Origin: Gammaproteobacteria bacterium | GTDB lineage: Bacteria > Pseudomonadota > Gammaproteobacteria > Arenicellales > Arenicellaceae | NCBI GenBank assembly: GCA_017854775.1 | Contig: JAFMHC010000027.1 | Coordinates: 1-32,483 of the forward strand | DNA: 32,483 bases | Direction: 5' to 3' | Shown: positions 1 through 20,405 of the stretch, piece after piece | Numbering within the stretch: the first letter of the stretch is position 1 | Layout: every line of letters starts with the position of its first letter | The notes under the pieces: generated by a model | Seen by the model: only the letters and a program-made list of their open reading frames with translations | Told to the model about the DNA's origin: nothing | Databases searched by the model: none | Translations under genes and position numbers: made by a program

Positions 1-903
1 TCTACTTGGAATTTTATCGGTGACATTGCCTTTGCCGAAGGGATGGATTCTGTTGCCCGAATTGAAAAACTGTTGGCTCTCAAACCCAGCATAGACAATC
101 CGAGTGACGGTTATCAACCGCACTCCGTCAAAGGCGAAATTGCCTTTAACAATGTATCGTTTAGCTACCCAACGGCCATCAACGCGAGCACGAGCAACGT
201 CAGCTTTACTATGGCCGCCGGGAGTAAGCTGGCGCTGGTCGGCCCTTCCGGTTCCGGAAAATCGACTCTGGCCAAGTTACTGCCACGGTTTTATGATGTC
301 AGCGAGGGCAGTATCACCGTAGATGGGGTCGATGTCAGGCAGTGGTCAGTCAGTCATTTGCGCCAGGCCATTGGCATTGTTTCGCAAGATGTAGTGTTAT
401 TCAACGCCAGCATCTATAACAATATTGTTTATGCTTGTGCTAGTAATAGCGCAGATAAGAACGAGAACAGGTCGTTGCGTGAGGCCGCAGAGGCGGCGGC
501 GAAAAAGGCATTTGCTCATGATTTCATTATGACGTTGCCAAAAGGATATCACACAGTTGTCGGTGAGCGCGGGGTAAAGTTATCGGGTGGCGAAAAGCAA
601 CGTATCGGCATTGCTAGAACAATTTTGCGTGACCCCCCGATATTGATTCTCGACGAAGCCACCTCAGCGCTCGATAGTGAATCAGAAGTGATAGTGACGC
701 AGGCATTGGAACAGATATGCAGAGAACACACGACACTTACCATTGCCCATCGCTTGTCAACGATTCGTCATTGCGATCAAATTTTGTTTTGTGAGCATGG
801 AAAAATTGTTGAACGCGGCGACCATAATTCTTTGATGGCGTTAAAAGGTCGTTACAGCACCCATGTTGAATTACAGAAGCAAAAAGAAATCTTGGAATTC
901 TGA
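1..903 (+). CDS. ABC exporter, C-terminal half with ATPase domain (5' partial)
   Basis: This reading frame is open from the first base of the window, so the gene starts upstream; the ATG at 43 is only an internal methionine. Visible are the end of the membrane part (EGMDSVARIEKLL, the usual linker) and a complete nucleotide-binding domain: Walker A GPSGSGKST at about 241-267, a Q-loop (SQDVVLF), the signature LSGGEKQRIGIAR, Walker B ILILDEAT and the switch histidine in IAHRLST. This architecture is that of MsbA/multidrug-type exporters with membrane and ATPase domains in one chain, which export lipids or amphipathic compounds from the inner membrane. The substrate cannot be read from this half. 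It ends 4 bases from the stop of the convergent PIG-L gene, so it may belong to the same gene cluster, for instance as the product exporter; that link is inference. Confidence 0.93.
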   Translation, partial: STWNFIGDIAFAEGMDSVARIEKLLALKPSIDNPSDGYQPHSVKGEIAFNNVSFSYPTAINASTSNVSFTMAAGSKLALVGPSGSGKSTLAKLLPRFYDVSEGSITVDGVDVRQWSVSHLRQAIGIVSQDVVLFNASIYNNIVYACASNSADKNENRSLREAAEAAAKKAFAHDFIMTLPKGYHTVVGERGVKLSGGEKQRIGIARTILRDPPILILDEATSALDSESEVIVTQALEQICREHTTLTIAHRLSTIRHCDQILFCEHGKIVERGDHNSLMALKGRYSTHVELQKQKEILEF

Positions 904-907
904 AGGC

Positions 908-1663
908 TTAAACGATTCCGTCTCGGCCCCACAATAGATCAAGCGGATTGTTTATAGGCACCGGTGAACGCAACACATACGCTTCACCATACCTGACACC
1001 AATCAAGCTGCCATAATATCGATGTCGGCTTTGCCATTGCTCTAAAAAGTCCGCAGCCGCCAATGGTGTGGTAACTTCTTGCGTGTCGATATCGTAAAGC
1101 TGACTAGCGTAGCATTTCACTGCCGCCAATTTTTTATCAAATACCGTGCTGACATCCTGCACTAAATGCGGCGTGTGCCCCAATCTGTCGAGATAAAATA
1201 AGACTTGCTCTGGGCGATGAGGTGCTGCCTTATCATCGGCACTGTCTAATGGGAAATTACCAATTCCGGAAAGATAACACGCTTGCCTTACCAACATTGA
1301 CGTTGACTGGTGATCAGGGTGATGATCATCCCAGTGAGAAGTGATTACCATTCTAGGCCTATAGTGGCGTATTTTTGCCACAATCCGCTGAATGGTTTCG
1401 GTTTGCACGGCTAGCTGCCCATCGGCTAAACCTAGGTTGTCACGAGCAGACAAACCAAGCAGCCTTGTGGCCACCGCCGCTTCATTCTGACGAATCTCGG
1501 GTGTTCCTCTACTAGCCGCCTCACCCCGAGTTAAATCTAACACGGCTGCTCGCGCGCCTTTTGCTTTCGCCATAAGCAGCAGGCCAGCACAATTCAATTC
1601 AGCGTCGTCGGGGTGCGCGCAAACAGCCAATATATCAACACCTTTTGAGTCGCTTTGGTTCAT
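908..1663 (-). CDS. PIG-L family deacetylase, BshB1-like
   Basis: A 251-residue LmbE/PIG-L zinc-dependent N-acetylglucosaminyl deacetylase. The metal and catalytic motif AHPDDAE lies near residue 17, and the second motif HWDDHHPDH lies near residue 109. Several stretches resemble the bacillithiol enzyme BshB1 rather than general PIG-L proteins: the DLTRGE...SRGTPEIRQNEAA segment, NLGLADG, and a C-terminus with GVRYGEAYVL then a DLL motif. BshB1 removes acetyl from GlcNAc-malate to expose the glucosamine amine. Start ATG at 1663 has AAGGAAA upstream at good spacing. It is the last gene of the minus-strand operon after the BshA-like glycosyltransferase and the Asn-synthetase-like ligase (54-base gap). 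Deacetylation of a GlcNAc conjugate is well supported by family; the exact substrate is not. Confidence 0.9.
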   Translation of the reverse strand: MNQSDSKGVDILAVCAHPDDAELNCAGLLLMAKAKGARAAVLDLTRGEAASRGTPEIRQNEAAVATRLLGLSARDNLGLADGQLAVQTETIQRIVAKIRHYRPRMVITSHWDDHHPDHQSTSMLVRQACYLSGIGNFPLDSADDKAAPHRPEQVLFYLDRLGHTPHLVQDVSTVFDKKLAAVKCYASQLYDIDTQEVTTPLAAADFLEQWQSRHRYYGSLIGVRYGEAYVLRSPVPINNPLDLLWGRDGIV

Positions 1664-1717
1664 AGAAATTTCCTTAAATCAGAGTGTTGGCTATGGTTCT
1701 TTTGGTTATAGTTTTAG

Positions 1718-3370
1718 TCAAGGCCGCAACCAGTGGCCGAGCACAATCGCACGACAGGCCATTTGGATTGCACGATGCTGACTAGCCCTTTCCATTTTAG
1801 CGGCCTGCTGACTGTTTGCTGATAATAATTGGCCGACCTGATACCAGTAAGCGCTATTAAACGGTTCAGGCAGTCGCGCCAGCTTATCTTGGATAAACTC
1901 CGCTAAACCAGGCTGAAACCACAATCGCTGCCAGTTAAAAGCATTCCCGCTTGTGGCAAAACCTTCGGTGGGGTAATAACGCTGAAAACATTGCCGCAAA
2001 ATGCGTTTATCGGTGCGTAAATGGCGAGGTAATTGGCCAATCAAATCGAGTATATCTGGGTCGAGCAAGGGGTTGAAGTTTTCGACAAACGGTGCTCGCT
2101 GTGAATTCAAATGAGCATTTAACGAAGGCAACCGTTCACGACAATAAAGTATATCGCGAACATCGTTTGGCTCATCCGCCACCTGCGATAAGCAGACTAT
2201 ATGCTGAGCATGTAAACCTTGCCAATCCTCTATCTGGCCGTTAAAAGCGTGGTTTAAGCTGACGTCATCATCGGAGAAACACCCTAAACCTACGCGTTTT
2301 AGCGCTGCTTCGCGGCTATTGACCTCTGCGCCATTGGGGCCAAAACATTCATCACCCCGCAACAACGCCTGCCTACCTTGTAATGCCAAGTGTCGAGACC
2401 AGACATAATCGTCAGTATGGCTAATCACGTGACTTGTCATGCCAGATTGGGTGGCAAACAGAGTGTTGAACAAACTTTCGATCCTGGCTTCAATCGGATA
2501 AAACGAAAAAAGTAAGTTGTGTCGCGCGGCCTCACGGGCGGCCCAAGCGGCATCAGAACCCGGCTCAACATTGGGTTCACCCCACAGACAGGTATGTAAC
2601 TGCCCCAGTTCATCCTCTGGTAATAGCTCCGCCAGAGTATTAAGGATATAACGCGAATCTACCCCACCAGAGAGCAGCAAGACAGGCCCATCGGCACGCT
2701 GCCAATGTTGTAATATGGCGCTATCAAGTCGGGCTTTTAGTTCAGGTAAAATTGCATCGGCGTGCAAATTTAAATTTTCTAAGCGGAACTCATACCAGGG
2801 AAATATCTTAAGTCGTTGATCGCCAATGCCATTGAGGCGATGAACGCTGCCTGGCGACAATTGACGCAGTTCAGTAAACAACGAACCTCCCGCAAAAAAC
2901 CGCCCAGCATGAAGAAACTGGAGCAAGTTGGCACCATCGATGGTACGCGTTTTAATCGCGGCCAGCAGTGGCGCTGTGTGCGAGCAATACAGCGTCTCAA
3001 ACCCATTATCAGTGAAAAAGAACGCTCGGCTAGCTAGTTGGTCGCTATAAATTCGAGTCACCCCATTGTGGCTGATCAATAAACGAAAGGACCCGCGCCA
3101 CTGCTTAACGCAAGCCTCGCCATTTTTGATAAAATCAATAATCAACGTCTTAAGCAAGCGATCGCCACGCTCCGCTCGATGGGTAACAAAACCTTCCAAT
3201 GCCAGTACCACGCCATTAATTTCTATGACCCCACTATCACCGCCCCCAACCGCAATCGCTAGTTGCTGGCTGTGATATTCTTCAAGCCCATTGGTATCCG
3301 GAAAATGCTCAAGCAGAGTCGCCAACCGAGCCTTTGCTTGAGGGCCGCAAACAATCAGAAGTCTTGACAT
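1718..3370 (-). CDS. Asparagine-synthetase-like ATP-dependent amide ligase lacking the glutaminase Cys
   Basis: A 550-residue protein with the two-domain plan of class II asparagine synthetases: an Ntn-type N-terminal domain (about 1-190) and a PP-loop ATP pyrophosphatase domain starting at SGGVDS (residues 234-239). In AsnB, residue 2 is the nucleophilic cysteine for glutamine hydrolysis; here the protein begins Met-Ser-Arg and no Cys sits at that place. In related enzymes that lost this Cys (beta-lactam synthetase, lasso cyclase), the carboxylate is adenylated and attacked by an amine of another substrate or of the same molecule. I infer an amide-bond-forming ligase, not an asparagine maker. 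ATG at 3370 follows AGGAG and overlaps the end of the glycosyltransferase gene by 16 bases, so the two are coupled. Exopolysaccharide clusters also carry such amidotransferase-like proteins, so the product remains open. Confidence 0.88.
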   Translation of the reverse strand: MSRLLIVCGPQAKARLATLLEHFPDTNGLEEYHSQQLAIAVGGGDSGVIEINGVVLALEGFVTHRAERGDRLLKTLIIDFIKNGEACVKQWRGSFRLLISHNGVTRIYSDQLASRAFFFTDNGFETLYCSHTAPLLAAIKTRTIDGANLLQFLHAGRFFAGGSLFTELRQLSPGSVHRLNGIGDQRLKIFPWYEFRLENLNLHADAILPELKARLDSAILQHWQRADGPVLLLSGGVDSRYILNTLAELLPEDELGQLHTCLWGEPNVEPGSDAAWAAREAARHNLLFSFYPIEARIESLFNTLFATQSGMTSHVISHTDDYVWSRHLALQGRQALLRGDECFGPNGAEVNSREAALKRVGLGCFSDDDVSLNHAFNGQIEDWQGLHAQHIVCLSQVADEPNDVRDILYCRERLPSLNAHLNSQRAPFVENFNPLLDPDILDLIGQLPRHLRTDKRILRQCFQRYYPTEGFATSGNAFNWQRLWFQPGLAEFIQDKLARLPEPFNSAYWYQVGQLLSANSQQAAKMERASQHRAIQMACRAIVLGHWLRP

Positions 3371-4530
3371 AAGGTGTGCTCCTGCGGTGTTTCTAGTCCC
3401 AGCACTTCATTGTATAACGCCACGTATTGGGCGATTTGTTTGGGGCCATGATACTTTGCCGTAATCGCTTGCATCCGGGCCTGTAAGGTAACCTCGCAGC
3501 CCTGAGCAGCCTGCACCATCGCATCGGAAATACTGACAATCAGCGACTCATCTTGTTGGTCTGGCACCAGATAAGGCCAATCATCGCCGAGCAATTCAGG
3601 CAACGCGCCGACGGCTGGAGCAATAACCGGCACGCTATACAGTAACGCTTCCAATACCACCAACCCAAAACCTTCGAAATCGCTGGTCAAAACAAACGCC
3701 TGTGCACGGGCATATTCCTGAATTAGCAATTGCGGGGCTAAATCGCCATTAATAACGTGCACCCCGTTGCCATCGTGGACATTATTTTTCAGCATTTCAC
3801 GCAGCCGTTTAACCCCATTGTTGGTAGTCACGATAATCAATTGCGCCTCAGATAAGCGACTTTTAACCTGGGCAAACGCACGTAATAAAACTTCAGGTCG
3901 TTTAACACTGCGCAACGACGACACGTGTAAAAAGCGCAGTGGCTGCACATGACAAGTCAACTTCGACTCACGCCAATTGGCGCGAACAAAGTTATTGATG
4001 ACACGAATATTGCTCAGATCAGGCACCTTATGCGACAGCCTGTCGGCGATATATTGTGAGACACAAGTGACTGCAGCGGCCGCACGTAAGACACCGGCAA
4101 CCACCTCGAGGTTGTGATCAAATAAGTGTGGGTTTAAAATATCAGACCCATGACAGGTCACAACATAAGGAACTGAGCGTAACTGATTTAGTTGCTGTGC
4201 TGACAATCCATAGACTTGCACGTTATGCAAATGAAGAAGATCAAATGGCCAGTCATCATGGATACGCAGAAGTTCGCTGACACTGTTCATCGGCCCACCA
4301 AGGCTTTCTGGAATATCTAACAACTGGCTTGATTTGACCCCAGGAGCGCTGTCGATAAAAAAATGATCGCTCAGCGACTGGTCATTTTGCAAATTGCAAT
4401 AACGAACGTCAAAGCCTTGGCTAGGTGGTAGGCTTTGAGCTATTGCCATTCCCAGCTCCTGTGCCACAATAGAGGACCCACCGCTGATCGCCAACATTGC
4501 CATGCAAATACGTGGTTTCGGCGTTAGCAT
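3355..4530 (-). CDS. Family 4 glycosyltransferase, BshA-like
   Basis: A 391-residue GT-B retaining glycosyltransferase. Seen: an N-terminal acceptor-domain loop ISGGSSIVAQELG (15-27) resembling the BshA GGSG..ATELG loop, CHGSD (126-130) at the domain interface, HVSSLRSVKRPEVLLRAF (202-219), and the nucleotide-sugar EX7E motif with Glu286 and Glu294 in EGFGLVVLEAL. BshA transfers GlcNAc from UDP-GlcNAc to L-malate, the first step of bacillithiol synthesis. The HVS..R.VKR and GGS elements are shared with BshA, but they also occur more widely in GT4, so acceptor and donor are inferred mainly from the partner BshB1-like deacetylase. The ATG at 4528-4530 has no Shine-Dalgarno sequence and lies one base after the stop of a small upstream ORF, suggesting translational coupling. 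Confidence 0.88.
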   Translation of the reverse strand: MLTPKPRICMAMLAISGGSSIVAQELGMAIAQSLPPSQGFDVRYCNLQNDQSLSDHFFIDSAPGVKSSQLLDIPESLGGPMNSVSELLRIHDDWPFDLLHLHNVQVYGLSAQQLNQLRSVPYVVTCHGSDILNPHLFDHNLEVVAGVLRAAAAVTCVSQYIADRLSHKVPDLSNIRVINNFVRANWRESKLTCHVQPLRFLHVSSLRSVKRPEVLLRAFAQVKSRLSEAQLIIVTTNNGVKRLREMLKNNVHDGNGVHVINGDLAPQLLIQEYARAQAFVLTSDFEGFGLVVLEALLYSVPVIAPAVGALPELLGDDWPYLVPDQQDESLIVSISDAMVQAAQGCEVTLQARMQAITAKYHGPKQIAQYVALYNEVLGLETPQEHTLCQDF

Positions 4531-4531
4531 A

Positions 4532-4708
4532 TCAACAAGCCATTTTTTCTAAGGCACAGTTAACCGCTTGAATTTGGGTAAACAACCCGTGGCTATCGGC
4601 GATCAGCATGGTTTCATGCACAACCATTTTGTCACTGGCATAGTTGATAAACTTCCTCTGTCTGTGCCCGAAAAATCTAACTGCAGGGCTAGGTTCCAGC
4701 GTATGCAC
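4532..4708 (-). CDS. Small ORF (58 codons) directly ahead of the BshA-like gene
   Basis: A short frame on the minus strand runs from a GTG at 4706-4708 to a TGA at 4532-4534, one base before the ATG of the glycosyltransferase. The predicted peptide starts MHTLEPSPAVRFFG and ends NCALEKMAC, with two cysteines in the last nine residues. I do not recognise it. In favour of it being real: the downstream gene lacks its own ribosome binding site, and the stop/start spacing is typical of coupled genes. Against: the GTG has AAGG immediately adjacent rather than at normal spacing, and an in-frame TGA closes the frame only a few codons upstream. It could be a small protein, a leader peptide, or the decayed 3' end of a lost operon gene. 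Confidence 0.4.
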   Translation of the reverse strand: MHTLEPSPAVRFFGHRQRKFINYASDKMVVHETMLIADSHGLFTQIQAVNCALEKMAC

Positions 4709-4834
4709 CTTGCAGCTACAGCATGGAGCGTCTCATTCCTTCGATGTTAAGTAGTACAAGAATCATAAACCCCACATTCGCCTAAATCAATAAGTATCAG
4801 CCCGTATAGAGATCTTGCAATCTCCGTAGAAAAT

Positions 4835-4860
4835 AACCAAATAAATCAACCAAATAAATC
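4835..4860. repeat. Perfect 13-bp tandem duplication upstream of the BshA-like operon
   Basis: The 13-base unit AACCAAATAAATC occurs twice, head to tail, with no mismatch (4835-4847 and 4848-4860). It lies in the gene-free stretch 4741-4987, between the LysR gene and the glycosyltransferase operon, where the operon promoter should be. The rest of that stretch is AT-rich with no further gene visible. The repeat could be a direct-repeat binding site or a simple duplication. Confidence 0.6.
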
Positions 4861-4987
4861 AGACACCCATGCGCGTTAAAAATAGTGTCGACAATCTTGA
4901 TAGTAGAAAAGCATGAACAAGAAAAAACCTACTTACTAACGGATTCCACGCAGCGATTATAGCCATCGTGCCCCAGAACTCTATGAC

Positions 4988-5893
4988 CTAGTACCTATCC
5001 TTAATACGGTCAACCAAGAAGTCCACGGCCACTTTGACCTTGGGCACCAAGTAACGTTGCTTTTGATATAAAAGATAGACAGCCAGAGCGCTGTTTTGTG
5101 TCACCTTCAGCTCAGGTTCTATCGCTAATATTTGTAAATCGCCTCGCCGAATATAATCGGCTAGCGTCCATTGCGGCGCCATCATAACGCCCTCACCGTT
5201 TACCGCTTTATCCACCAGCCATTTCCCACTATTAGAGATTGCCGCTTCGGGAACGGTCGCGGTATGCCATTGATCGTCATGTTGGTAAAACCAGCTTTGT
5301 GGGCCTACAGGCGTACGGTAGACCAGACTCCGATGTTGACGCAAGTCATTGGGGTGTTTAGGCATACCATGCTTAGCCAGATAACTTGGCGCAGCGACCA
5401 AAATAAATTCATTGTCCATCAGGCGAACAGCCTGAACTCTTTCGTTTGGCGCATAGCCTCCACGAACCGCTATGTCGACATCATCACGCCCAAGAGCAGA
5501 CAACTCATCGCTAAGACTGATGTCGAGAACGACTTCTGGATAAAGCTGGCTGAATTCTGCGAATAAGGGCAACAATATGCGCTCACCAAAACCTACCATC
5601 GAACTGACCTTAAGCCGCCCCATGGGTCTCGCATGGTAGCTGCGCACCGACTCATTGCTTTGTTCCAATTGGTGCAAAATATCTTGCACTTGTGAATAAT
5701 AATCACGACCAATTTCAGTTAACTGCACACTGCGCGTGGTGCGCTTTAATAGGCTTGCACCAAGACTCTTTTCCAAATCAGCAAGCCGGCGCGACAAGGA
5801 TGACGGCGGCACCGAAAATTGCTTTGCGGCCTTGGTGAAACTGCTCGTCTCAGCGACCGCAACGAAGTATTTAAGGGCTCGTAATTGATCCAT
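4988..5893 (-). CDS. LysR-family transcriptional regulator
   Basis: A 301-residue LysR-type regulator. The N-terminal winged helix-turn-helix is clear: FVAVAETSSFTKAAKQF, then PPSSLSRRLADLEKSLG, then LLKRTTRSVQLTEIG. The remainder is the usual co-inducer-binding domain with RLKVSSMVGFGERILLPLF at its start. It resembles the large CrgA/DmlR-like branch often found beside oxidoreductase genes. I chose the ATG at 5891-5893 (MDQLRALKYF), preceded by GGA at six bases, over a TTG two codons upstream. It is divergent from the CurA-like reductase gene, with a perfect palindrome in the shared upstream region, so it probably controls that gene and itself. The effector is unknown. On the same strand, the glycosyltransferase operon follows about 280 bases downstream. 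Confidence 0.93.
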   Translation of the reverse strand: MDQLRALKYFVAVAETSSFTKAAKQFSVPPSSLSRRLADLEKSLGASLLKRTTRSVQLTEIGRDYYSQVQDILHQLEQSNESVRSYHARPMGRLKVSSMVGFGERILLPLFAEFSQLYPEVVLDISLSDELSALGRDDVDIAVRGGYAPNERVQAVRLMDNEFILVAAPSYLAKHGMPKHPNDLRQHRSLVYRTPVGPQSWFYQHDDQWHTATVPEAAISNSGKWLVDKAVNGEGVMMAPQWTLADYIRRGDLQILAIEPELKVTQNSALAVYLLYQKQRYLVPKVKVAVDFLVDRIKDRY

Positions 5894-17260: not shown

Positions 17261-18217
17261 TTATTTAAAATTTTCTACTACGAACTCAACCCGCTGTTCA
17301 ATACTTGGGCCTCGCTTGCCGACTATCGCCTCGATTGCCCGCAATCTAGGTAACATGCCCATACGGTTTGCTGTTTGTATCGCCAAACCTGGGCGAGCAT
17401 TGAGTTCCAAAATCATAGGCCCGCGATTACGGTCTAGCACCACGTCTGCACCAAGATACCCTAGGCCTGACATTTCATAACAGCTAGCTGATAAATGCAG
17501 CATTTCTTGCCAGCCTTCGATTTTAATATCTAAAAGATCTCTACCCGTGTCGGGATGGGTGCTGACTGGGCGGTTGTATTGCACTGCGGCCTTGGCTGTG
17601 CCATCGACAATATTGATGCCTACCCCTACTGCACCTTGATGCAGGTTTGCCTTGCCGTCGCTCGCGTGCGTGGCGAGTCTGAGCATTGCCATCATTGGGT
17701 ATCCCTTGAATACAATTATACGAATATCAGGCACCCCTTCATGGCTCAATCCTGTAAATGCAGGGTCGAATTCGATCAGCGCCTCAATCATTGCAACATC
17801 AGCGGCACCGCCGAGACTGAATAGACCCGCTAGAATATTGGTAACATGACGTATGATGTCATCATAAGTAACATACTCACCGCTGGCCTTTTTATAGCCC
17901 TTTTCATCTGAGCTGATAATCACTAGGATGCCTTTGCCACCGCTGCCTTTGGACGGCTTAATACAAAACCCTTGGTGTTGATCGAGTATCTTAGAAACCT
18001 CAGCCACATCATGCTGATAACGCACTACTCCGAGCAATTCAGGCACGGTTAAACCATAATCCAGCGCCAGGACCTTAGTTTTTAATTTATCATCTACGTT
18101 AGGAAAAAATTTTCGCTGGTTATAACGCGATATATACGAGAAGTTACGCTTATTCATTCCCATCACTCCGCGATCGCGAAGCTTGTAAGGGTTTGCCAGG
18201 TTAAGCAGACCGAACAC
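17261..18217 (-). CDS. RimK-like ATP-grasp ligase (alpha-L-glutamate ligase-related)
   Basis: A 318-residue ATP-grasp enzyme. Seen: the ATP-binding loop KPSKGSGGKGI (about 87-97), VPDIRIIVF in the middle, and the magnesium-binding end GADVVLD...PMILELNARPG. It belongs to the alpha-L-glutamate ligase-related group, relatives of RimK, which adds glutamates to a protein C-terminus; the substrate of this group is unknown. The start is a GTG at 18215-18217 that overlaps the TAG of the preceding gene, with GGAGGA at ideal spacing inside that gene's end. It is the last gene of the operon with the inactive transglutaminase-7TM, retropepsin and AstE-like genes. This association has been predicted from comparative genomics to make or remove peptide tags; no product is established. 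No terminator is visible downstream. Confidence 0.92.
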   Translation of the reverse strand: MFGLLNLANPYKLRDRGVMGMNKRNFSYISRYNQRKFFPNVDDKLKTKVLALDYGLTVPELLGVVRYQHDVAEVSKILDQHQGFCIKPSKGSGGKGILVIISSDEKGYKKASGEYVTYDDIIRHVTNILAGLFSLGGAADVAMIEALIEFDPAFTGLSHEGVPDIRIIVFKGYPMMAMLRLATHASDGKANLHQGAVGVGINIVDGTAKAAVQYNRPVSTHPDTGRDLLDIKIEGWQEMLHLSASCYEMSGLGYLGADVVLDRNRGPMILELNARPGLAIQTANRMGMLPRLRAIEAIVGKRGPSIEQRVEFVVENFK

Positions 18218-19713
18218 TAATAGTCCTCCATCGGTTTAAAACGCCTTAGCTCTAACAATCGGTATCCTGTGTACTGCCCCATCAATAGCACTGCTGCCAT
18301 AATTAATGCATGCACGCCAAGAAAATTAAACGCCCAATGACGAATCAAGGCGTTGTCCATCATCAAGTACGCGATTACCGCCACAAGCAAGCTACCGCCG
18401 CCTTGGACTAGCACTTCTTTGCCACCTTCCTCTTCCCATAGAATCGACATACGCTCAATGGTCCAAGCCATGATAACCATCGGAAAGAAGGTAATCGTGA
18501 GCGCATCGGTAAGGCCAAAACGAAAGGCAATAATGGTGAACAGGGTAATAATACCAATCACTAATATCACCACCGCCGATATTCTCGACACCAGCAGCAA
18601 GTTCAAACGCGACAAATAAGAGCGTATCACCAAGCCGGTAGAGACGATCAAAAGAAATCCAATAACCCCGTTGAGTAATTCGGTTTGAATAAACGAAGTA
18701 GCTATCAGAATTGGCATAAAAGTACCGCTACATTTCAAGCCGATAATGACGCGCAAAAAGACCACCACCAAGGCACCGATTGGTAATAGCAATATTCCTT
18801 TAAATAAATTTTGTTCAGCGATCGGCAGATTGTAGAGCCCCGAGTTAAATAGGTCAGCGTCGACCGATAAACTCTGCGCTTCCTTAAGCGCACTTCTGGT
18901 GACGCTACTTATCGAAAATGAGATATCTGAATTGCCGGCTCCCTCTACGTCTAGCAGCCAAGGTGAATCTTGCCGCCAAATCAAAATCGGCGACTCAGGG
19001 TCTAGACCCGATGATTCTAGATCAAATAGCTCCCATTGCTTATCCACGTAGACTCTTACCAATGGTATCAATGATTGATTTCGGCGACCATCTTCCAGCA
19101 CCAAGCCACCTACTCGTTTAGAAGGCACCCCAGCCATTTCTAATAGGTGCACAAAAACCTCAGTTCGCGTATAGCGCGTTAGTAACAAGGCAACACTTTG
19201 GTTCTGTGCGCGCAGGCTGTTCTGAATTTCACGCAGTAAAAGTTCATCATTACTGGAGCGGTCAAAGGCCTCCTTTAACAGTGTCGACGCGGTACTCTGA
19301 TAAGGCTCATCCCAGACGTCAGCCTGAATTAGATCGGTCGGTGCAGGGTCGGCTTCAGGATCCAAGACTTCTTTGTATGAGCCCCTGTAATAGAGGGTTT
19401 GACGACCCTCTGCCTTGCGCTTGCTCCAGACAACCTTAGGCGGTATCTGCTCTCTCAAAACATTAACCCCATAAGCTGGCGAGGCGGTATATTCTTCGAC
19501 TAACTTAAATTTCCCGTCTTTGGGCAGGGTTAGTTGGGCATTGACGGCTCCTTGTTCGCCGGTAAAAGCAATCTGCGCTTCGACCTCCCATATCGTTACC
19601 TGTTCGCCGGTTGTCAGAGGCACACCGGTTTCAACGTGACGATAGTATATGGTAGAGATGCCAACCGCCACCAAGATGAAAATGAGAAAAAAGAAAGGAG
19701 CTCTTTCGGACAT
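18217..19713 (-). CDS. Inactive transglutaminase-like domain fused to seven membrane helices
   Basis: A 498-residue protein: one N-terminal helix (FFFLIFILVAVGISTIYY), a periplasmic region of about 250 residues, then seven helices (about 300-485). The periplasmic part has a transglutaminase-like fold (RYTRTEVFVHLLEMAGVPSKRVGG, VRVYVDKQWELFDLE), but the catalytic Cys is replaced (TRTEVF where a Cys-Glu/Trp is usual) and the His of the triad is missing, so it should bind peptide rather than cut or cross-link it. The membrane part carries the family motif KCSGTFMPILIATSF. Its stop overlaps the start of the ATP-grasp gene by one base, and it begins two bases after the retropepsin gene. I infer a periplasmic peptide receptor or transporter that feeds the cytoplasmic ligase. 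Confidence 0.92.
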   Translation of the reverse strand: MSERAPFFFLIFILVAVGISTIYYRHVETGVPLTTGEQVTIWEVEAQIAFTGEQGAVNAQLTLPKDGKFKLVEEYTASPAYGVNVLREQIPPKVVWSKRKAEGRQTLYYRGSYKEVLDPEADPAPTDLIQADVWDEPYQSTASTLLKEAFDRSSNDELLLREIQNSLRAQNQSVALLLTRYTRTEVFVHLLEMAGVPSKRVGGLVLEDGRRNQSLIPLVRVYVDKQWELFDLESSGLDPESPILIWRQDSPWLLDVEGAGNSDISFSISSVTRSALKEAQSLSVDADLFNSGLYNLPIAEQNLFKGILLLPIGALVVVFLRVIIGLKCSGTFMPILIATSFIQTELLNGVIGFLLIVSTGLVIRSYLSRLNLLLVSRISAVVILVIGIITLFTIIAFRFGLTDALTITFFPMVIMAWTIERMSILWEEEGGKEVLVQGGGSLLVAVIAYLMMDNALIRHWAFNFLGVHALIMAAVLLMGQYTGYRLLELRRFKPMEDY

Positions 19714-19715
19714 AA

Positions 19716-20405
19716 CTATTTTGGCCTCTGAAGGTTTCTACGGCTGACATCAACAACAGCAATATCTCTTAAAAAACTACGCCCGATTAATAATTGGTAT
19801 TTCAAGTGACTACGGTCGGCTAAGTTGAAAATTTGGTTTTTGTATTTAACACCACCCATCTCGATATCCATCTTAATCTCAATACGATCCGCCGTTTCTG
19901 TACTACTCACCTTAATCCGAATGGTGTCAAATATTGGGTATTCAAACCTTGTCGCAGCGTCATCATCTTGAAGAGAAAAACGAACCCAATTTTCACTATC
20001 ACGCTCAAATGTTTTGATATTGTAAACACCAACAGAAGAGAAATCGGCGCCGGTGTCTATACGCGCATCGTAGGCAATTTTTTCTTTGACCAATCTGATG
20101 TTCTCAACCGCGCCAACTCGTAGCTTGCCATCAATCGTTTTAGACCTTTTTTTGACACTCTTCTTTTTACTTGAACAGCGCTCCACCACTTTGGTGATGA
20201 TTTTAGGTTCAATTTTTTGCTCTAGTTGCTCAATCTTCTGAGCGCAGCTTAACAAAAATTGCTCGGAGAGCTCGGCGTTCAGGGAGTCAATTCGGTCTGA
20301 TACTCTCTGCATGTCAGATACCCTATCGGGGTCAATTGCCGGCTGTGAAATGCACGCGCTCAAGCAGAACACTAGAGGTGCGAGGAAAGCGGTAGTTTGA
20401 TACAT
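19716..20405 (-). CDS. Retropepsin-like aspartic protease lipoprotein ("ATP-dependent zinc protease" family)
   Basis: A 229-residue protein with a lipoprotein signal: a hydrophobic stretch ending in the lipobox LSAC, with Cys18 as the lipidated residue. A coiled, charged region follows (about 25-70), then a Lys/Arg-rich segment KKKSVKKRSKT, then a retropepsin fold with catalytic DTGADFSSV (Asp117) and the paired LLIGRSFLRD near the end. Databases often call this family ATP-dependent zinc protease, but the visible motif is that of an aspartic protease. It would be anchored to the envelope, facing the periplasm. It sits at the head of the three tightly packed genes with the transglutaminase-7TM and ATP-grasp genes, and may process the peptide they handle. 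Confidence 0.9.
   Translation of the reverse strand: MYQTTAFLAPLVFCLSACISQPAIDPDRVSDMQRVSDRIDSLNAELSEQFLLSCAQKIEQLEQKIEPKIITKVVERCSSKKKSVKKRSKTIDGKLRVGAVENIRLVKEKIAYDARIDTGADFSSVGVYNIKTFERDSENWVRFSLQDDDAATRFEYPIFDTIRIKVSSTETADRIEIKMDIEMGGVKYKNQIFNLADRSHLKYQLLIGRSFLRDIAVVDVSRRNLQRPK

Follow-up and report, generated by a model that had tools for sequence, protein, structure and literature searches.

We analysed a 32,483-nucleotide contig (JAFMHC010000027.1, assembly GCA_017854775.1) of a gammaproteobacterium of the family Arenicellaceae, here called the window, and found on its minus strand a compact operon of three genes (908–4530). They encode a GT4 glycosyltransferase related to BshA, a ligase related to asparagine synthetase (Asn synthetase) and a deacetylase of the PIG-L family that is classed as BshB1. 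From sequence comparison, we consider it reasonably probable that the operon was acquired laterally and specifies three successive steps towards a bacillithiol-type compound, an N-acylated glucosaminyl conjugate. In the first step, the glycosyltransferase would transfer N-acetylglucosamine (GlcNAc) from uridine diphosphate GlcNAc (UDP-GlcNAc) to an acceptor that resembles a small hydroxy acid and could be malate or another compound. BshB1 would then remove the acetyl group and free the glucosamine (GlcN) amine, a step supported by the family of the enzyme. In the third step, the ligase, which has no Cys at its second position, would activate a carboxylate as an acyl-adenylate (acyl-AMP). The acyl group would then pass to an amine that is not ammonia from glutamine; the simplest candidate is the amine exposed by BshB1. 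The product would be an N-acyl-glucosaminyl compound, probably one not described before, and it would be a thiol only if the acyl group is cysteine.

The three open reading frames (ORFs) are intact and follow one another in the same orientation on the minus strand. The glycosyltransferase gene is the first (3355–4530, 391 residues), followed by the ligase gene (1718–3370, 550 residues, Met-Ser start) and the deacetylase gene (908–1663, 251 residues). The stop of the glycosyltransferase gene and the start of the ligase gene overlap by 16 bases (3355–3370, minus strand; ATG and TGA were checked in the window and in contig G705:C529 of Algicola sp. DT_2, described below), and the gap between the ligase and deacetylase genes is 54 bases. 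Judging from this order and overlap, the three genes are apparently one transcript. Between 800 and 5000, there were 7 promoter-like sites against 5.8 (standard deviation (sd) 2.1) in shuffled sequence and 8 terminator-like sites against 4.8 (sd 2.2), both within about 1.5 sd. A first-pass annotation had described the trio in this order with the 16-base overlap, and both features held up. It had drawn the boundary at 4708, and so included a 58-residue ORF with a GTG start (4532–4708) just upstream of the glycosyltransferase gene. This ORF was rejected as a conserved small protein: upstream of the Algicola glycosyltransferase gene, the best match had an E of 0.51 over 11 residues, which is not credible. 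We set the operon end at 4530 because the ORF has no credible counterpart in Algicola.

The first-pass annotation had also proposed that the trio be sought in other genomes, and the same three genes were found in the same order in Algicola sp. DT_2 (L017), with 60–74% identity to the window. A scan of the contig collection returned the PIG-L gene (72% identity) with the ligase gene (60%) directly upstream. The glycosyltransferase gene (61%) lies at the end of the other contig, G705:C529; the ligase gene follows it there with the same 16-base overlap and is present for its first 33 codons. Both contigs break inside the ligase gene, and we infer that they adjoin. Because gene content, order and overlap are conserved, the trio would represent one pathway in two organisms. 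The deacetylase passes the BshB1 cut-off, the best model of the glycosyltransferase is BshA, and a second genome carries the same trio; thus, the grouping is more than chance. No shared neighbour outside the trio was seen between the window and Algicola. Downstream of the Algicola copy there is an ORF (L017 3719–4021) that we take, by likeness, to encode a ParD-like antitoxin.

The deacetylase is assigned to BshB1, and deacetylation of GlcNAc-malate is predicted from this family. It scored 248.4 bits on the NCBIfam BshB1 model TIGR04001 (cut-off 182.5), and the Algicola copy scored 249.8 bits; the scores of the window protein on other models were far lower (BshB2 46.3, Mca 30.3 and MshB 20.6 bits). 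The BshB1-type segments DLTRGE, SRGTPEIRQ, NLGLADG and GVRYGEAY, which had been read from the sequence in the first pass, are all present. The AHPDD motif (residues 16–20; 1604–1618, minus strand) and the HPDH motif (residues 115–118; 1310–1321, minus strand) presumably have a role in metal binding; A16, H17, D19 and D20 of the former and all of the latter are invariant in 7/7 aligned rows. A tree was built of 80 PIG-L rows (78 different), of which only the window and Algicola rows were scored on the BshB1 model. These two were sisters (support 100/99) and grouped with two Spirochaete rows (100/99). This group was nested in a 31-row set with Acidobacteria, Bacteroidota and Ignavibacteria. By cut-off and tree, the enzyme thus falls in BshB1 and not in an exopolysaccharide or lipopolysaccharide family.

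Both Spirochaete genomes (G706 and G707) have BshC over its cut-off, in G707 as two pieces in one frame, with a BshA-like glycosyltransferase gene adjoining it in each. These metagenome-assembled genomes (MAGs; loci L018 and L019) thus carry BshC, a BshA-like glycosyltransferase and a BshB1-like PIG-L, and gave no GshA match at E<=0.001. Their hosts are likely bacillithiol makers, and their PIG-Ls are the nearest kin of the window BshB1 after that of Algicola. Another PIG-L, at L041 in a MAG titled Bordetella parapertussis, groups with Acidobacteria rows; a BshA-like glycosyltransferase gene adjoins it and the genome has no BshC match. This MAG is probably mislabelled or a mixed bin.

The second gene product is assigned to the N-type ATP pyrophosphatase superfamily, in a subfamily that we call Cys-less. 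In Pfam, it matched Asn_synthase (PF00733) with 37.8 bits (cut-off 21) and had no match to a glutaminase domain. Among NCBIfam models, four matched at E<=0.01 and none was near its cut-off. We aligned the window and Algicola ligases and nine further homologues with six Asn-synthetase-type proteins that begin Met-Cys. The Met-Ser start and the PP-loop SGGVDS reported earlier were confirmed: the Algicola ligase starts MSRLLI, whereas AsnB-type rows start Met-Cys in 6/6, and the PP-loop SGGVDSR occupies residues 234–240 (within LLSGGVDSR; 2651–2671, minus strand). SGGxDSR is present in 11/11 Cys-less rows, and DSS or DST in 6/6 Met-Cys rows. The aligned second position is Ser or Pro, never Cys, in all rows that reach the N-terminus (10/11), with several true starts uncertain. 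The ligase keeps the PP-loop, GDE and K455, the last being Lys in 10/11 rows and Arg in one. GATase_7 was matched in 4/11 Cys-less rows, the window ligase not among them.

Matches to the ligase at E<=1e-8 were found in 16/368 other genomes of the class, with 26–32% identity. With these Cys-less proteins of the class, the window ligase shares SGGxDSR, GD[EQS]xxG and the lack of Cys at the aligned second position. It differs from them in identity, which is 19–23% in the alignment, and in company: BshB1 was absent at E<=1e-30 from those 16 genomes in the search of 369 class genomes. Cys-less Asn-synthetase-related proteins with SGGxDSR were observed beside glycosyltransferase-like genes at L140 (6266–9827, in tandem) and at L136 (7648–9348).

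According to PMC6594144, some N-type ATP pyrophosphatases join carboxylates to amines that are not ammonia, and PMC13060819 places lactam-forming and lasso members in the Asn-synthetase superfamily. Because members of the superfamily carry out such couplings, a Cys-less homologue would be a reasonable enzyme for the amine freed by BshB1. The ligase would resemble beta-lactam synthetases and lasso cyclases in using a PP-loop for carboxylate activation toward an amide other than asparagine (PMC6594144, PMC13060819), but its partners here are sugar enzymes. The lone cyclase model that it matched is NF033561 (albusnodin/ikarugamycin), with 32 bits against a cut-off of 300. A lasso or other RiPP (ribosomally synthesized and post-translationally modified peptide) reading, considered for an Asn-synthetase homologue beside an ABC exporter, was rejected because this sole curated cyclase model was far below its cut-off; the look for a precursor peptide was limited to listing the small ORFs of 4400–5050.

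BshC was not found in either host. The best match to the BshC model TIGR03998 in the window's genome (G000) had 8 bits and an E of 2.26, and at E<=0.001 there was none in G000, in the Algicola genome (G705) or in two further genomes (G708 and G709). BshC was over its cut-off in the two Spirochaete genomes and in G710. GshA was matched with 607.5 bits in the window's genome and 603.3 bits in Algicola (cut-off 393.3), whereas 3/3 BshC-bearing genomes gave no GshA match at E<=0.001. From gshA we infer that both hosts make glutathione. The first-pass annotation had left room for a BshC elsewhere that completes bacillithiol; in the host assembly (92.7% complete), none was found. At this completeness a BshC could have escaped notice, but it would need to be missed in both hosts. 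The earlier proposal of a bacillithiol-like set with a replaced BshC stands in its parts, namely BshB1, a BshA-related glycosyltransferase, a Cys-less ligase and no BshC found, but GshA weakens a role as the main thiol. This role is less likely because the host also encodes GshA. In these gshA-bearing hosts, a function as main redox buffer is less likely for the product than that of a specialised metabolite or an additional thiol.

The best NCBIfam model of the glycosyltransferase is BshA (TIGR03999), with 104.8 bits over profile positions 3–374; the next model scored 68.9 bits. Both trio glycosyltransferases match this profile from position 2 or 3 to 374, unlike four other GT4 proteins (39.2, 43.1, 44.1 and 76.1 bits), all of which start at profile position 138 or later. 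The best PDB matches by sequence were 2jjm, 5d00 and 3mbo (E of about 1e-14). Of these, 5d00 carries the name BshA, and we take 2jjm and 3mbo to be BshA structures too. GGS..VA.ELG and other BshA positions are retained. We place the enzyme as a distant relative of BshA, since BshA is its best model over nearly the full profile, yet the cut-off of that model is not reached.

Several observations weigh against the proposed pathway, and the first concern this same enzyme. The BshA cut-off is 273.7 bits and the Algicola protein scored 98.3 bits, whereas three BshA-type controls scored 480.6 (that of G706), 530.4 and 577 bits. In the acceptor region, HVHYAIP is present in 9/9 BshA-type rows (three of which were scored on the model), whereas the window and Algicola have HLHN[VL]Q[VI]; in the window, the changed block is HLHNVQVYG (residues 100–108; 4207–4233, minus strand). 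One gene that occurs at both L029 and L102 entered this alignment as L029. The Tyr of the HYAIP block presumably touches malate in BshA structures. Because this block is replaced, the acceptor may differ from malate. The glycosyltransferase tree was built twice, the second time without L106, L107 and four GT4 rows (two of L136 and two of L140), and both builds had long branches and no resolution near the trio enzymes. One build put the nine BshA-type rows together without them (99/97), and a single clade of the BshA rows and the two trio enzymes was not rejected (approximately unbiased test, p-AU 0.537). Of the comparisons with families and trees that the first pass had proposed, that of the glycosyltransferase gave BshA as best model but a score below its cut-off and a changed HYAIP block, and the PIG-L fell among BshB1-like rows while the placement of the glycosyltransferase relative to BshA was poorly supported. 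The other observations are of a different kind. The missing BshC is a weak sign in a MAG because G708, which has a BshA-like glycosyltransferase gene beside a PIG-L gene, also gave no match. The Algicola trio lies on two unjoined contigs, and only two carriers are known. The ligase may act on another substrate because it has relatives in the polysaccharide-like loci L136 and L140. Finally, nothing ties the ligase to cysteine; the pathway would work like bacillithiol synthesis, but we do not file it as such.

These observations bear also on true bacillithiol synthesis, in which the glycosyltransferase would use malate and the ligase, standing in for BshC without being its ortholog, would couple cysteine to GlcN-malate. 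In the tree, the window BshB1 is grouped with PIG-Ls from genomes in which BshC and a BshA-like glycosyltransferase both occur. BshC was found in neither host, and the retained BshA positions of the glycosyltransferase also agree with this explanation. The score below the BshA cut-off, the changed acceptor block, the presence of GshA in both hosts and the lack of any pointer to cysteine make this explanation unlikely.

A second alternative concerns the carboxylate. Asn synthetase activates the beta-carboxylate of aspartate, and malate is the hydroxy analogue of aspartate. The ligase could by analogy activate the carboxylate of the glycosidic acid itself and form an intramolecular amide with the freed amine. 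The glutaminase Cys is missing from the ligase, and beta-lactam synthetases of the superfamily make intramolecular amides (PMC6594144). There is no positive sign for this substrate, an outside acyl donor fits equally, and we regard such ring closure as very improbable. In this lactam, the nitrogen of glucosamine would be bound to the carboxyl carbon of the glycosidic acid; with C1 of malate, the ring would be a fused six-membered morpholinone. In a wider form, the trio may represent a third glucosaminyl small-molecule pathway with an Asn-synthetase-like ligase for the final amide, at its boldest a lactam, that is, a bicyclic non-thiol amino-sugar metabolite; we consider this a long shot.

The neighbourhood raises a further alternative. 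The window begins with the 3' part of an MsbA-like ABC exporter gene (1–903, plus strand), which is cut by the contig end, convergent with the operon and 4 bases from it; its membership in the system is uncertain. The fragment scored 315–317 bits on MsbA-type models, whose cut-offs of 602 and 780 the fragment does not meet, and among the matches listed for 17 other genomes of the genus, its identity is 43–50%. The genus thus offers no close counterpart, and the fragment may have arrived together with the operon. As a guess, it could export the product. In glycolipid or polysaccharide tailoring, the glycosyltransferase would have a lipid or glycan as its GlcNAc acceptor, the deacetylase would expose GlcN, the ligase would amidate it and the MsbA-like neighbour would export the product. 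Besides the nearby exporter, the neighbourhoods of Cys-less ligase relatives agree with this: among eight examined, L136 and L140 look rich in glycosyltransferase genes, by eye and by alignment with GT4 proteins. However, the deacetylase is BshB1, whose known substrate is soluble, and this identity counts against tailoring for that reason. Moreover, no polymerase, flippase or further glycosyltransferase was found in 20/24 window ORFs of at least 150 residues that were scanned against Pfam, and no exporter-type large ORF was noticed on the two Algicola contigs, where no scan was aimed at exporters. Tailoring is thus rather improbable. A defence system was also considered and rejected: PADLOC gave no match for the three operon proteins and generic ATPase matches only for the ABC fragment. 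Elsewhere in the window (17261–20405, minus strand), genes for an ATPgrasp_ST sugar-transfer ATP-grasp protein, an inactive seven-transmembrane (7-TM) transglutaminase and a putative ATP-dependent zinc protease are adjacent.

The trio appears to be rare. At E<=1e-30, the BshB1 model matched 1/369 class genomes, which was the window's own, and 3/299 phylum genomes, with the window's genome the one over the cut-off. The window PIG-L as query matched 1/109 genomes of the host's order at E<=1e-30, again its own, and a PIG-L search around Algicola at E<=1e-40 matched 1/147, Algicola itself. Searches for the ligase covered the 369 class genomes and 61 genomes around the host; the latter contained no near relative, the best other match having 26% identity. 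By blastp in 80 of 84 confirmed PIG-L loci, with flanks of at most 8 kb often ended by contig ends, a ligase relative was beside PIG-L only in Algicola. A scan of genome contigs for the ligase with six exact peptide patterns of one sequence found none and missed even Algicola, and similar scans of viral contigs found no relative; such pattern scans are weak negatives. Phage or plasmid carriage was rejected: phage records had no match to the ligase or PIG-L, and 4, 30 and 41 plasmid records matched the ligase, PIG-L and glycosyltransferase, respectively, each with a best identity below 60%. No paper describing this gene set was found in the titles and abstract openings of the open-licence literature.

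The window is the whole contig G000:C374 and is chromosomal, since dnaG, rpoD and a tRNA-Met are also on it. The G+C content of the operon is 49.0%, against 41.5–48.2% in 41 segments of the same size that were taken from four further contigs of this genome; another, short contig with 47.5% G+C was excluded. In tetranucleotide usage, the operon has a distance of 0.240, whereas the segments have a mean of 0.172 (sd 0.028) and a maximum of 0.264; the stretch of the window from 28801 reaches 0.244. The composition of the operon is mildly unusual, which fits lateral transfer and is no proof of it.

Compared with the bacillithiol pathway (BshA, BshB and BshC), the operon has the same logic, with a BshA-kin GT4 protein, BshB1 and a third enzyme in the amide-forming position. 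It differs in that no BshC was found, the ligase is of the Asn-synthetase superfamily, the glycosyltransferase is below cut-off with a changed acceptor block and the host has gshA. In PMC6282198, bacillithiol gene sets are defined by bshA–C orthologs and occur in many phyla, including Proteobacteria. The mycothiol pathway (MshA, MshB, MshC and MshD) likewise combines a GT4 protein and a PIG-L protein with an ATP-dependent ligase, which acylates the amine of GlcN after adenylation of a carboxylate. The window PIG-L and glycosyltransferase fit BshB1 and BshA more closely than MshB and MshA. As described in PMC2922099 and PMC6594144, MshC is a relative of cysteinyl-tRNA synthetase that adenylates cysteine and couples it to glucosaminyl-inositol (GlcN-Ins), and so offers a precedent for the proposed last step, whereas the ligase here is an N-type ATP pyrophosphatase.

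For one and the same type of amide, bacillithiol and mycothiol synthesis use ligases that are unrelated to each other. If the proposed pathway is true, the Asn-synthetase superfamily would supply a third solution, one dependent on ATP, and would illustrate the ease with which this scaffold can be used again. Such chemistry would then occur together with gshA, in a class where 1/369 sampled genomes gave a BshB1. The compact three-gene set can be tested for a new metabolite or thiol.

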